Shown in pieces: positions 35,921-41,176 of a stretch of DNA of 64,000 nucleotides (the stretch's first letter is position 1; every line of letters begins with the position of its first letter). Below the pieces are notes generated by a model. That model did no database searches and was not told the origin of the DNA. It saw only the letters and a program-made list of their open reading frames with translations. Source of the DNA: Streptomyces soli (GTDB lineage: Bacteria > Actinomycetota > Actinomycetes > Streptomycetales > Streptomycetaceae); contig NZ_RJVR01000311.1 in NCBI RefSeq assembly GCF_003999195.1, positions 1 through 64,000 on the forward strand, in the 5' to 3' direction. Made by a program: the position numbers and the translations under genes.

Positions 35921-37111
35921 TCAGCCCTTGATCTCGGTCCAGGCCTGGACCCACTTGGCGTACGGCACGCACGTCACGTTCGTACGGCCGTCCAGGCACT
36001 GCGGGATGGGCGTGTTCCAGAAGTGGACCTTCTTCCAGTACGGCTCGTCGGCCGCGTGGTACGTGGCGCAGAAGGTCTTGTCGGCGGTGTAGTCGCAGGA
36101 CTTGGAGTCGGACGGGGCCTCACCGAACCACTCGGCGACCTGGGCGTTGACCTTGGGGGAGACGATCCAGTCCAGCCACTTGTAGGCGCAGTTGGGGTGC
36201 TTGGCCTTGGCCGAGATCATCCAGGTGTCGGACCAGCCGGTGGAGCCCTCGCTCGGCAGGATCGCCTTGACCTTGGCCTTCTCGGACTGCGCGAGGTTGG
36301 CGATGACCTGCCAGGTGGTGCCGATGACGGAGTCGCCGCTCTTGAAGGCGGAGATCTCCTTCAGGTAGTCGCTCCAGTACTCACCGACGTTGGCGTTCTG
36401 CTCCTTGAGCAGGGCCACGGCCGCGTCGAACTGCTTCTGGTCGAGGGCGTACGGGTTCTTGATGCCCAGCGACGGCTTGCTCTTCATCAGGTAGAGCGCG
36501 GCGTCCGCGATGTAGATGGCGGAGTCGTAGGCGGTGACATGGCCCTTGTACGCGGACGACTTGTCGAAGACCGCCGACCAGGACGTCGGGGCGGGGGAGA
36601 CCTTGTCGGTGCGGTACATCAGGAGGTTGGCGCCGCGGCCGTGCGGGATGCCGTAGGCGACCCCGTTGACGGAGTTCCACTTCTGCAGCTTGAGGCTGGA
36701 GAAGATGTTCTTGTAGTTGGGGACGAGATCGGTGTTGACCGGGGTGGCGTCGCCGGAGGCGATGAGGCGCAGCGAGGCGTCGCCGGAGGCGGAGACGGCG
36801 TCGTACTGGCCGGTCTTCATCAGGCTGACCATCTCGTCCGAGGTCCCGGCGACCTTGGTGTTGACCTTGCAGCCGGTCTGCTTCTCGAAGGGGGTCACCC
36901 AGTCGACGGACTTGTCGTTGGAGCCGTCCTCGGCGTAGCCGGCCCAGGCGATCAGGTTGACCGTGCCCTCGGTCTTGCCGAGGGTCTTCTGAGCGCTGAG
37001 CTTGGGCGGGGTGAAGGCGCCGTTGGAGCTGTCGGTACTGCTGCCGGACGATCCGCAGGCGGTGGCGAGGGCCAGCACCGTACAGGCTACGAGGGTACGG
37101 GTCAGACGCAC
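35921..37111 (-). CDS. Polyamine-type ABC substrate-binding lipoprotein (PotD-like)
   Basis: Encodes 396 residues from a GTG that overlaps the ATPase stop by 10 bp, with GGAG upstream. The lipoprotein signal ends in LATACGSS (Cys near 19). The type 2 binding fold contains [48 protein letters not shown] and [10 protein letters not shown], as in PotD/spermidine-binding proteins. Four cysteines near the end may form disulfides. It delivers the solute to PotB/PotC-like permeases. Confidence 0.9.
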
Positions 37112-38154
37112 GTGGACTCCGTTTCCGGGGCTTCGGGGGCTTCGGGGGATTCCGGGGTGGTGACGATGACGTTGTGGCGGCGGTGCCACTGGAGGCGGAT
37201 GCGGGTGCCGCGGTAGGCGGCGACCTCTTCGGAGGAGGTCTCGTGGTTCTGCTGGAGGGCGGTGAGCCGGCCGCCCTCGTCGAGGGCGACCAGGAAGCGG
37301 GTGGAGTCGCCGCGGTAGACGACCTCGGCGACGGTGCCGGTGACGGTGCGCAGGTCGTCGCCGGTGCCGGCCGGTGCTTCCTCGTCGAGCAGGCGGATCT
37401 TCTCGGGCCGGATGCTGTACGTACCGCCCTCGTCGGTCAGCAGATTGGACGTACCGACGAAGCCGGCGACGAAAGGCGTGGCGGGCCGTTCGTACACCTC
37501 GGCGGGTGTGCCGACCTGCTCGATCCGGCCGCGGTTGAACACCGCGATCCGGTCGCTCATGGTCAGCGCCTCCACCTGGTCGTGGGTGACGAAGACGAAG
37601 GTGATGCCGACCTCGCGCTGCAGGGCCTTCAGCTCGACCTGCATCTGCTCGCGCAGCTTCAGGTCCAGGGCGCCCAGCGGCTCGTCGAGCAGCAGCACCT
37701 TCGGCCGGTTGACCAGGGCGCGGGCGAGCGCGACGCGCTGCCGCTGGCCGCCGGAGAGCTGGGCGGGGCGGCGCTTGCCGAAGTCGGCCAGCTGGACGGA
37801 GGCGAGCGCCTCGCGGGCGCGCTCGGCGCGCTCGGCCTTGGGGACCCGGCGGATCTTCAGTCCGTACGCGACGTTCTGCTCGACCGACATGTGCGGGAAG
37901 AGGGCGTAGTCCTGGAACACGGTGTTGACGTCCCGCTCGAAGGGCGCGAGCCGGGTCACGTCCTGGCCCGCCAGCTCTACGGTGCCTGCGGTCGGGGCCT
38001 CGAACCCGGCGATCATGCGCAGCACGGTGGTCTTGCCGGAGCCGGACGGGCCCAGCATCGAGAAGAACTCGCCGTCGCCGATCTCCAGGTCGACCCCGGC
38101 GACCGCCTCGACCTGGCCGAAGGACTTGCTCAGGCCGCGCAGGCGTATGGCCAT
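37102..38154 (-). CDS. Polyamine-type ABC transporter ATPase (PotA-like)
   Basis: Encodes 350 residues. Walker A is GPSGSGKTT near residue 36, signature [15 protein letters not shown], Walker [13 protein letters not shown], switch His in FVTHDQ. The C-terminal TOBE domain (about 280-340) is typical of PotA and related ATPases; the last residues are Pro/Glu-rich. First gene of the operon. Its promoter lies in the 106-bp gap shared with the divergent GntR gene. Confidence 0.93.
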
Positions 38155-38199
38155 GGGCGGGGAACCTTTCTGTTCGGTCGAGCGTTGACCGCAAACATA

Positions 38200-38214
38200 T
38201 GAAGTTATATTTCA
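38200..38214. promoter_or_regulatory. AT-rich inverted repeat between potA-like and GntR genes
   Basis: TGAA and TTCA (7 bases apart) lie in the AT island ATGAAGTTATATTTCAA, in the middle of the divergent promoter region. It is a plausible operator for the adjacent FadR-type GntR regulator. A TTGACC that could be a -35 box lies at 38185-38190. Confidence 0.45.
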
Positions 38215-38260
38215 AAGGACAAGATCCGGCTGGGGTAAAGCTTTTGTCAAGTGAGAAGGT

Positions 38261-39049
38261 GTGCTTGTGCTCGTGAACAAGCTTTCGGGTGGCGCCCTGC
38301 ATGCGGTCTTCGCTCCGGTCGGCAACCTGGCCAGGGTCGACGCCGTCGTACGGCGGCTCGCCGACGCCATCGACCTCGGCCTGCTCGCCGACGGGGAGCA
38401 ACTCCCCGGCGAGAGCGAGCTCTCCGCCCGCCTCGGCGTCTCCACCGTGACCTTGCGCGAGGCGCTCATGGCACTGCGCCAGCAGGGCCTGGTCACCACC
38501 CGGCGCGGCCGCGGCGGCGGCAGCTTCGTCACCGTCCCCGACCAGCCACCCGCGGCCCGGCTCGGGCACCGCCTCGCCGACTGGAGCACGGAGGAACTGC
38601 GCGACCTCGGCGACCACTGGGCCGCCATCTCCGGCACCGCCGCCCGGCTCGCCGCCGAACGCACCGAACCCGGCGACCTCGCGGCGCTGCTGCGCTCCCT
38701 GGACGAGTTCGAGGCAGCGGAGGATCTGGCCGCCCGGGGGCGGATATACGGGCGCTTCCATGTCGAACTGGCCGCCGCCGCGCAGTCCGCCCGCCTCACC
38801 AAGGAAGAGATCCGTATCCAGGCGGAGATCGGGGCGCTAATCTGTCTCGCACTCGGGGAGGACGACGGCCTCGCGTCCGTGGCCCGGCTGCAGCGCGCTC
38901 TGATACGCGCCGTACGGGACGGCGACGCGGAGCAGGCCGGATCACTGGCCGAGCGGCGCGTAAGGGACGCGATGGCGCGTCTGATCGAACTGCGCCTTGC
39001 CGACTCCGGCCAGGGCCTGTCCGGCCCTGATCCGCCGGGCAGGCCCTAG
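38261..39049 (+). CDS. GntR family regulator, FadR subfamily
   Basis: Encodes 262 residues. The winged helix at about residues 25-90 shows LPGESELSARLGVSTVTLRE and GLVTTRRGRGGGSFV. The C-terminal FCD ligand domain follows, with metal-site style histidine in YGRFHVELAAAA. It is divergent from the polyamine-type transporter operon and presumably represses it. The start is the GTG at 38261; an internal GTG 12 bases later is possible. The last 11 codons and the TAG stop come from a mobile-element hairpin (39014-39045), so the native C-terminus was replaced. Confidence 0.87.
   Translation: MLVLVNKLSGGALHAVFAPVGNLARVDAVVRRLADAIDLGLLADGEQLPGESELSARLGVSTVTLREALMALRQQGLVTTRRGRGGGSFVTVPDQPPAARLGHRLADWSTEELRDLGDHWAAISGTAARLAAERTEPGDLAALLRSLDEFEAAEDLAARGRIYGRFHVELAAAAQSARLTKEEIRIQAEIGALICLALGEDDGLASVARLQRALIRAVRDGDAEQAGSLAERRVRDAMARLIELRLADSGQGLSGPDPPGRP
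39014..39045. repeat. Minimal mobile-element hairpin at the GntR 3' end
   Basis: GGCCTGTCCGGCCCTGATCC with its partner CCGCCGGGCAGGCC is the joined pair of ends of the element seen whole at 45459-45767, here without interior. It is followed by CTAG (39046-39049), which supplies the GntR stop codon TAG. It looks like a deletion relic of a CTAG-targeting element. Confidence 0.7.
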
Positions 39050-39089
39050 GAGGCAACCACCGTGGCGCTAGGAGGCAACCACTGTGGCG
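39046..39089 (+). repeat. Tandem duplication of a ribosome site and start codon
   Basis: Two 22-bp copies (39046-39067, 39068-39089; one mismatch) of CTAGGAGGCAACCAC-GTGGCG. Copy 2 gives the AGGAGG and GTG (39084) of the cache-domain gene. Copy 1 gives an equally good AGGAGG and GTG (39062) but in another frame, opening a 14-codon peptide that stops at 39104-39106, inside the real gene. Confidence 0.85.
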
Positions 39090-39803
39090 CTCACCACTTC
39101 CGTTGACGTGGCCGATGTCGTCGACCGGGTGCGCGACACCCTGGAGGACGTCTTCGAGGCCGTCGCCCGGGTCCGCGAGCGGACGGTCGCCATCGCTGCC
39201 GTGCGGGCCGCCGGCCGGCCTCTCACCACGGTCGACCTGGCCGGCCTGCGGCCGCTGCTCCACGACCGCCTGCGGCGGCACCGGGACCTCATCTCCGGCA
39301 TCGGCTTCATCGCCGAGCCGGGACTGCTGGGCGACGCGCCGGCCTGGCTGGAGTGGTGGCAGACCAGCCGGGACGGCGAACTGCGGCCGCTGCTGCTCGA
39401 TCTGGACCCGCATACGTCGGCGTACTCCGACTACACGCACTGGGACTGGTTCGCGCTGCCGAGGGAGACCGGGCAGCGGGCGTGCGCCGGCCCGTACGTC
39501 GACTACCTCTGCTCCGACGAGTACAGCCTCACCCTGTCCGTGCCCGTCCACCACGGCGACCGCTTCCTGGGTGTCGCCGCCGCCGACGTCTACCTCCGGC
39601 ACTTCGAGGCCGCCGTCATCCCGCTCCTGCGGGTCCTGCCGGGCCCCGCGTGCCTGGTGAACGCCCGGGGCCGGGTCGCCGCGTCCACCGACGCCCGGCA
39701 CCTCGCGGGGTCGCTGCTCAAGAGGCCCGACGCCGCGGATGAGGTCAGGCGGTGGCCCTGCGGCGACATCCCGCTGGTGCTGGCGCAGATGCGGTCGGCC
39801 TAG
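39084..39803 (+). CDS. Cache-domain sensory protein, soluble
   Basis: Encodes 239 residues. The segment of about residues 60-180 shows the cache (small-ligand sensor) pattern: ISGIGFIAEPGLLGDAPAWL, SDYTHWDWFALPRETG, PYVDYLCSDEYSLTLSVPVH and GVAAADVYLRHFEA. There is no signal peptide or membrane span. It is placed directly behind the GntR regulator and across from the transporter operon, so it may sense or bind the same amine. The stop TAG (39801-39803) is part of the CTAG that borders a mobile element. Confidence 0.75.
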   Translation: MALTTSVDVADVVDRVRDTLEDVFEAVARVRERTVAIAAVRAAGRPLTTVDLAGLRPLLHDRLRRHRDLISGIGFIAEPGLLGDAPAWLEWWQTSRDGELRPLLLDLDPHTSAYSDYTHWDWFALPRETGQRACAGPYVDYLCSDEYSLTLSVPVHHGDRFLGVAAADVYLRHFEAAVIPLLRVLPGPACLVNARGRVAASTDARHLAGSLLKRPDAADEVRRWPCGDIPLVLAQMRSA

Positions 39804-39958
39804 TAGTGCTTGGTCAGGTCGGCCTGACCTGCGGCGATTGCCTCTCGATGTGCCCGGTCGGCAAAGATCGTCAGAATCGTCCGCCCTGGTCAATGACGCC
39901 TGTCCGGCGAGGACATCTCCCGAGCGCGCCGAGTCCAACCGGACCTGACCAAGCGCTA
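39804..39958. mobile_element. CTAG-flanked MITE-like element 1
   Basis: A 155-bp sequence with terminal inverted repeats TAGTGCTTGGTCAGGTC (one mismatch) flanked by CTAG on both sides (39800-39803 and 39959-39962). No coding capacity was seen. The CTAG duplication is typical of IS5-type transposases, which could mobilise it from elsewhere. Confidence 0.72.
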
Positions 39959-39962
39959 CTAG

Positions 39963-40124
39963 GAGCGCACCGAAGATCTATGCCGGGCTCGCGACGCCCC
40001 GCACGCACATCTGCCGCGTTGGCCGGATTCCCGGATAGAACACCACTATCCGGGAATCCGTCCGCCTTGCAGCTGCACGCACCGGACGCCGCTCGCTGAT
40101 CCGGCCCAGATCTTCCGCACACTC
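39963..40124. mobile_element. CTAG-flanked MITE-like element 2
   Basis: A 162-bp sequence between CTAG at 39959-39962 and CTAG at 40125-40128. The ends match over 18 of 24 bases (GAGCGCACCGAAGATCTATG against the right end). The centre holds a perfect 15-bp hairpin CGGATTCCCGGATAG (40024-40038/40046-40060). It is adjacent to element 1 and shares one CTAG with it. No ORF recognised. Confidence 0.65.
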
Positions 40125-40940
40125 CTAGGTGCGCAGTTCCGCCAGGACCGCGTCCGTTAGCGCCGGCCACAACGGCAGGGCCCAGGGCCCGAAGTCACGG
40201 TCCGTCAGGACGACGCAGGCCGCGCCGGCGTCCGGGTCGGCCCACAGGAAGGTGCCGGACTGGCCGAAGTGGCCGTACGTACGGGGCGAGGACGAAGCGC
40301 CGGTCCAGTGCGGGGACTTGCCGTCCCGCAGCTCGAAGCCGAGCCCCCAGTCGTTGGGGTTCTGGTTGCCGTAGCCGGGCAGGACGCCCCTCAGCCCGGG
40401 GAAGACGACCGAGGTCGCCTGCGCCAGCGTCGAGGGATGCAGCAGGCGCGGCGCCTGGACCTCCGCTGCGAAGAGGGCGAGGTCGGCGGCGGTGGAGATG
40501 CCGTCGGCGGCGGGGGAGCCGGGCAGGGAGGTCGCGGTCATGCCCAGCGGCTCCAGGACGGCCTGGCGCAGGTACTCGGGGAAGGGGATCTCGGCGGCCT
40601 TGGCGATGTGGTCGCCGAGCGCCTCGAAGCCGGCGTTGGAGTAGAGCCGCCGGGTGCCCGGTGCGGCCATGGCGCGGGGCTCGTCGAAGGCCAGCCCAGA
40701 GGCGTGCGCGAGCAGGTGCCGCACGGTCGAGCCCTCCGGCCCTGCGGGGTCGTCCAGCTCGAAGACACCCTCCTCGTACGCGACGAGCGCCGCGTACGCC
40801 GTGAGGAGCTTGGTGACCGAGGCGAGCCGGAAGGGCCGCGCCTGGGGTCCGTACGTGCCGGCCACCGTGCCGTCGCGGCGGATGACGGCCGCCGCCGCAT
40901 CGGTAACGGGCCAGGTCTCGATCAGGCTGAGGCTCTCCAT
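40125..40940 (-). CDS. Serine hydrolase, class C beta-lactamase fold
   Basis: Encodes 271 residues. Catalytic SVTK (Ser41, Lys44), YSN near residue 98, and HFGQSGTFLW as third motif. No signal peptide is seen, so it is cytosolic, unlike resistance beta-lactamases; most such actinobacterial proteins are esterases or peptidases. The ATG at 40940 is the first good start. Its stop TAG falls in the CTAG bordering MITE-like element 2. Confidence 0.87.
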   Translation of the reverse strand: MESLSLIETWPVTDAAAAVIRRDGTVAGTYGPQARPFRLASVTKLLTAYAALVAYEEGVFELDDPAGPEGSTVRHLLAHASGLAFDEPRAMAAPGTRRLYSNAGFEALGDHIAKAAEIPFPEYLRQAVLEPLGMTATSLPGSPAADGISTAADLALFAAEVQAPRLLHPSTLAQATSVVFPGLRGVLPGYGNQNPNDWGLGFELRDGKSPHWTGASSSPRTYGHFGQSGTFLWADPDAGAACVVLTDRDFGPWALPLWPALTDAVLAELRT

Positions 40941-40964
40941 GGCAGCGAGCCTAGCGGTGGCGGT

Positions 40965-41150
40965 GCCGCCATCCCCAAAAGCAATGACTTCCTGATGCTC
41001 GGCACCCAGTTCCAGACCAGCCCCGGCGGGACTCGCGGGTGACATGTTCAAGGCGCTGCGCGCCGCTGGCGTGAAGAAGCTGCCGGACGCCGCCGAGATT
41101 GTGGACCACGACGTCCTCGACGCCTTCTTCGGCGGTAAGGCAGTGATCTG
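40965..41150 (+). pseudogene. Gene remnant, C-terminal part of an unknown protein
   Basis: Two frames make one protein-like end: KSNDFLMLGTQFQTSPGG in one, then MFKALRAAGVKKLPDAAEIV and ending DAFFGGKAVI before a TGA at 41148. The codon use looks coding. No start and no body upstream. I do not recognise the family. Confidence 0.4.
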
Positions 41151-41176
41151 AGAGCCCACGGATTGAAATGTGGTTG

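Follow-up and report, generated by a model that had tools for sequence, protein, structure and literature searches.

Two unrelated MITEs (elements A and B) fill the space between two convergent genes in the window, i.e., the whole 64-kb stretch of DNA that was analysed, and they very probably arrived in two successive insertions, catalysed in trans by DDE transposases. The insertion site was very probably a CTAG tetramer in which two convergent TAG stop codons overlapped by 4 bp. The ancestral CTAG would have been the shared stop of the two facing genes. Every insertion would have regenerated CTAG at either end of the element. The left and right genes would thereby each have retained a complete TAG stop, and the fresh CTAG would have allowed the next insertion, resulting in a tandem. 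In a genome in which CTAG is rare and often a stop, such a site would be a harmless niche, and the insertions were presumably neutral.

Three CTAGs and the gene ends in relatives

The three CTAGs that the first-pass annotation had placed at 39800, 39959, and 40125 were all found by a sequence search of the window (Table 1). It had also ascribed the stop of the cache-domain gene to the left CTAG and that of the serine hydrolase gene to the right one, and the ORF coordinates agreed: the TAG of the former (39801–39803) lies within the left CTAG, and the minus-strand hydrolase gene ends in the CTA of the third CTAG, which reads TAG on that strand. CTAG was about four times rarer than expected in the window, with 21 occurrences compared to 92 expected from the dinucleotide content. 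When a detector for CTAG-bounded blocks with ends matching at at least 12 of 16 positions was applied to 324 kb of sequence, made up of the window and 13 randomly chosen 20-kb segments from relatives, blocks A and B were the only two found. Regarding the terminal inverted repeats, the 18 of 24 matches reported for B were reproduced, whereas the perfect 17-bp repeat reported for A was not, as the ends of A inside the CTAGs match at 16 of 17 positions with one T/C mismatch.

Table 1. Coordinates of the genes, CTAG tetramers, and elements at the site in the window.
Feature	Position	Strand	Remarks
Cache (PDC-sensor) domain gene	39084..39803	+	ORF; Pfam PF22673, 9.5e-8
Left CTAG	39800..39803	.	Target-site copy of element A and cache gene stop
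Element A	39804..39958	.	155-bp IS701-type MITE without transposase gene; ends TAGTGCTTGGTCAGGTC / GACCTGACCAAGCGCTA
Middle CTAG	39959..39962	.	Common to A and B; target copy where the second insertion would have happened
Element B	39963..40124	.	162-bp palindromic MITE-like element; block with CTAGs 39959-40128
Conserved core of B	39982..40094	-	Common to elements with other ends; reverse complement ..GGCGTCCGGTGCGTGC..GCAAGGCGG .. CAACGC..GTGCGTGC..
Right CTAG	40125..40128	.	Target-site copy of element B and hydrolase stop
Serine hydrolase gene (beta-lactamase / D-Ala-D-Ala carboxypeptidase fold)	40125..41159	-	ORF; Pfam PF00144, 1.8e-37

Orthologs of the cache-domain gene were found in 80 loci of other genomes. 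In the window, it belongs to a cluster (35921–39803) that also contains polyamine-type ABC transporter genes and a gene for a GntR/FCD regulator, and at many Streptomyces loci the cache gene likewise has transporter genes of a similar kind as neighbours.

The genome clusters with Actinacidiphila, which was separated from Streptomyces as a genus, and A. glaucinigra (G012) and A. oryziradicis (G028) are in the same genus. In A. glaucinigra and another genome, G001, the cache-domain and hydrolase genes are adjacent with neither block present, and the window flanks joined at one CTAG, with the blocks excised, align collinearly with both. The gene ends in these two genomes differ from those in the window, with overlapping frames and TGA stops, and in A. 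oryziradicis (L042) a different short gap with another GC-rich hairpin lies between the genes. The expectation that relatives would have the two genes ending at one shared CTAG was borne out in part. Such a CTAG was not found at the cache/hydrolase junction in any relative, and the ancestral single CTAG at this junction is therefore inferred. However, it was found at the orthologous hydrolase gene with another neighbour gene in G033, where one CTAG provides both convergent stops (..RDPA* / ..AELRA*). At the same place in G027, the sister of G033, there is a half-deleted B-family element of which the right side is left, and the hydrolase stop is still the right-hand CTAG. This insertion is independent of that in the window.

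Six B-family insertions in G033 were excised by a script, and the joined flanks were searched for in G027. An empty orthologous site was found for all six, and five of these sites contained exactly one CTAG, which the adjoining gene uses as its stop; the remaining site contained ATAG. Together with the block-free relatives and the multi-copy nature of the CTAG-bounded elements, these mostly one-CTAG empty sites support the first-pass proposal of two successive insertions that left both genes unharmed.

Elements A and B and their families

Block A with its flanking CTAGs spans 39800–39962, and its terminal arms of 22 nt, including CTAG, are 95% complementary. The search of the genome for other copies of each block, which had been recommended in the first pass, revealed three more copies of A (C344, C51, and C357; 100%, 99%, and 99% identity, respectively) and four more copies of B (C20, C316, C144, and C23; 96%, 96%, 93%, and 87%, respectively). 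Two of the A copies have CTAG on either side, and one has ATAG/CTAG. Element A is classified as a MITE because it is short, has terminal inverted repeats and dispersed copies, and contains no transposase ORF. That two A copies are 100% identical suggests recent movement, and because the A copies are 99–100% identical compared to 87–96% for the B copies, A was probably inserted second.

The ends of A are those of a full-length 1450-bp IS701-family element in the same genome (L010), whose transposase ORF is broken (NF033540, 6.7e-69). A full-length IS701 element in G001 (L069) encodes an intact 421-aa transposase (DDE_5) and is identical to A over 23–24 bp at one end. Since A has its ends in common with L010 and L069, its transposase family is IS701 and not IS5, the type that had been suggested in the first pass; A would have been mobilized by an IS701-family transposase. 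Element A resembles IS701 insertion sequences and the MITEs derived from them in having IS701 ends, CTAG on both sides, and several near-identical copies, but the match is confined to the ends, and simple deletion of the IS would not yield the interior of A. A 42-bp palindrome consisting purely of two IS701-type ends of A was also observed in the same genome (L009:2157-2199; C195:98957-98998), and a second short CTAG palindrome was located at about L009:2383-2405.

Element B is also short, lacks a transposase gene, and has ends matching at 18 of 24 positions and dispersed copies at a fixed target, which are the features of a MITE. In a search that required only TA at the borders, 49 of 54 sites were flanked by CTAG on either side. 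Two copies in the same genome, L014 (CTAG/CTAA) and L015 (CTAG/CTAT), fit a 2-bp TA duplication and a mutated 4-bp duplication alike. The B core has matches with 70–75% identity in many members of the genus, with 20–40 copies per genome in some, and the B family is a large family of CTAG-bounded hairpin blocks, mostly of 130–220 bp, in Actinacidiphila and Streptomyces. The ends vary by subfamily (CTAGGGCCTGTCGTYYGGATC, CTAGGGCCTGTCCGGCGGATC, CTAGGCCGTGTTTTGGAAG, and CTAGGCCGTGTCTGACAAAT), and those of B itself are CTAGGAGYRYRCTGAAGATC. The 58-bp CTAG-bounded elements L212, L213, and L214 in G033 and L215 in G031 are made up solely of the two terminal repeats found in the CTAGGGYCTGTCGTYYGGATC subfamily. 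In two Streptomyces species, B-family elements were observed downstream of the orthologous cache gene at non-identical positions (L132:3800-3990 and L099:3770-4060).

Most B-family elements have IS5-like ends (CTAGGGCCTGTY / CTAGGGCGTGT), and the same genomes contain full-length, CTAG-bounded DUF4096 (IS5) elements with ends like these (L279, L293, L297, and L302). The IS5 type anticipated in the first pass fits the wider family of B, whose ends (CTAG plus GGGCCTGTY/GGGCGTGT) resemble those of the full-length DUF4096 elements, but no parent was found for B itself. The own ends of B, GAGYRYRCTGAAGATC, match no full-length element found; no autonomous element with them was detected in the same genome or in 120 genomes of the family; and the IS5 elements of these genomes showed no long conserved hairpin core. 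L053 was considered as a parent of B and was rejected, as it has one such end only, plus a fragment of another transposase gene. Judging from the wider family, B would most likely have been moved by an IS5-type transposase recognising CTAG. The B core had no match in the phage collection searched, and parts of it are carried by six Streptomyces plasmids (L309–L314); large Streptomyces plasmids with B-core elements are a possible route of spread.

Stop-codon CTAGs as insertion sites

The use of stop codons was analyzed for 73 distinct elements, including A and B of the window, and for background CTAGs sampled from four genomes. With the genes around the elements called by GC-frame bias, not by annotation, the bounding CTAG was a gene stop in 51 of the 73 elements and in 17 of the 56 background CTAGs (Fisher p=1.5e-5), and the flanking genes both converged in 34/73 and 9/56 cases, respectively (p=3e-4). 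None of the elements in this test was located within an open frame. For two plasmid copies, L309 and L312, RefSeq annotation confirmed that a gene stops in the bounding CTAG. Sites at which both flanking genes have their stop in a CTAG were rarer (the window, L063, and L161). The excess at stop-codon CTAGs is compatible with target choice and with removal of harmful insertions. As the related genomes show, elements of this large family have repeatedly jumped into the CTAG of a stop codon.

Tandems sharing a CTAG were found elsewhere at L236 (1497–1826) and L216 (G028 C68) and probably at L175 and L235, and such recurrence is expected because every insertion leaves a fresh CTAG. In a tandem of this kind in G028, a B copy lies beside an element with the ends CTAGTGCCGCGACCGGC.

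These results provide a simple reason why some transposons are harmless: their target is a stop on both strands and is rebuilt at either end of the insert. Gene ends thereby turn into safe landing places that can be used again, leading to tandem stacks. IS5/IS701-type elements are usually described as targeting YTAR. Convergent stops can overlap by 4 bp in four tetramers, CTAA, TTAA, CTAG, and TTAG (PMC2174442), and because these are exactly YTAR, the idea is testable in any genome with such elements.

RNA folding, alternative origins, and known systems

As RNA, the minus strand of B was predicted to fold into one hairpin of about 70 bp with a free energy of -110.8 kcal/mol (z -10.1), compared to -75.5 kcal/mol for the plus strand. 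The asymmetry was present in all full-size B-family elements, in which the sense RNA was 10–42 kcal/mol more stable, and arises because the positions at which the arms differ can pair as G.U on one strand. It was absent from element A, with a strand difference of just 3–5 kcal/mol. An Rfam search with B gave nothing above the gathering score, only sub-threshold matches to generic miRNA hairpins. The hairpin sense strand was randomly oriented (25:21) with respect to the gene that ends in the bounding CTAG. The folding asymmetry of B would fit selection on an RNA and strand-biased mutation alike.

We tentatively suggest that B may belong to a so far undescribed superfamily of mobile hairpins that extends across the Streptomycetaceae and lands on overlapping convergent stop codons, regenerating both stops, and whose conserved, strand-specific core under varied ends might reflect a selected RNA-level role, in the life cycle of the element or in 3′-end formation. 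A further step, that hosts retain B-family elements at gene ends as mobile hairpins whose strand-specific RNA would be an RNase III site or a bidirectional terminator, is compatible with successive insertion and would account for the sense-strand advantage seen throughout the family and absent from A, and for the conservation of the core under different ends. We regard it as rather improbable, since the orientation relative to the gene is random, strand-biased C-to-T mutation could yield the same G.U pattern, and the copies of any one subfamily do not count as independent. The strand-specific core is a question apart from the stop-codon niche.

Both blocks fold strongly and are located between convergent genes, where terminators occur, and the gap in A. 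oryziradicis contains a hairpin of its own (L042), as would be expected if A and B were ordinary intergenic terminators or regulatory hairpins of the two genes with fortuitous CTAG flanks. This is very unlikely: as an origin it is refuted by the dispersed, identical or near-identical copies at unrelated loci, and each block ends in CTAG on both sides, relatives show empty sites, the ends are common with a transposase-bearing element, and there is no T-run. Once inserted, A and B may nevertheless act as terminators. Insertion of a single composite element, to which the common middle CTAG might point, has almost no likelihood, because A and B each occur alone with their own boundaries elsewhere in the genome, are never joined, and differ in their ends and copy divergence.

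Successive insertion of two MITEs into a shared stop is related to several known phenomena. Convergent gene overlaps of 4 bp (PMC2174442) and the convergent 3′-overlapping RNAs (cutoRNAs) of Streptomyces (PMC3765725) explain how CTAG can be the shared stop of two convergent genes, but they are not mobile elements and describe the target, not the insertion. We found no description of these elements in open-access papers on MITEs of Streptomyces, on CTAG as a target, and on convergent stops, and an absence from open-access papers is weak evidence. The separate pieces are of known kind, and in the open-access texts searched, neither the niche of regenerated stops nor the family of hairpins appears to have been described. 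Correia (NEMIS), ERIC, and RUP repeats are dispersed palindromic sequences of 100–200 bp that are often located near gene ends and give long RNA hairpins. The elements described here are similar to these in size, palindromy, dispersal, gene-end location, and RNA hairpin potential, but differ from them in their CTAG target, mostly at stops, in their occurrence in high-GC actinomycetes, and in the combination of several end types with one core.
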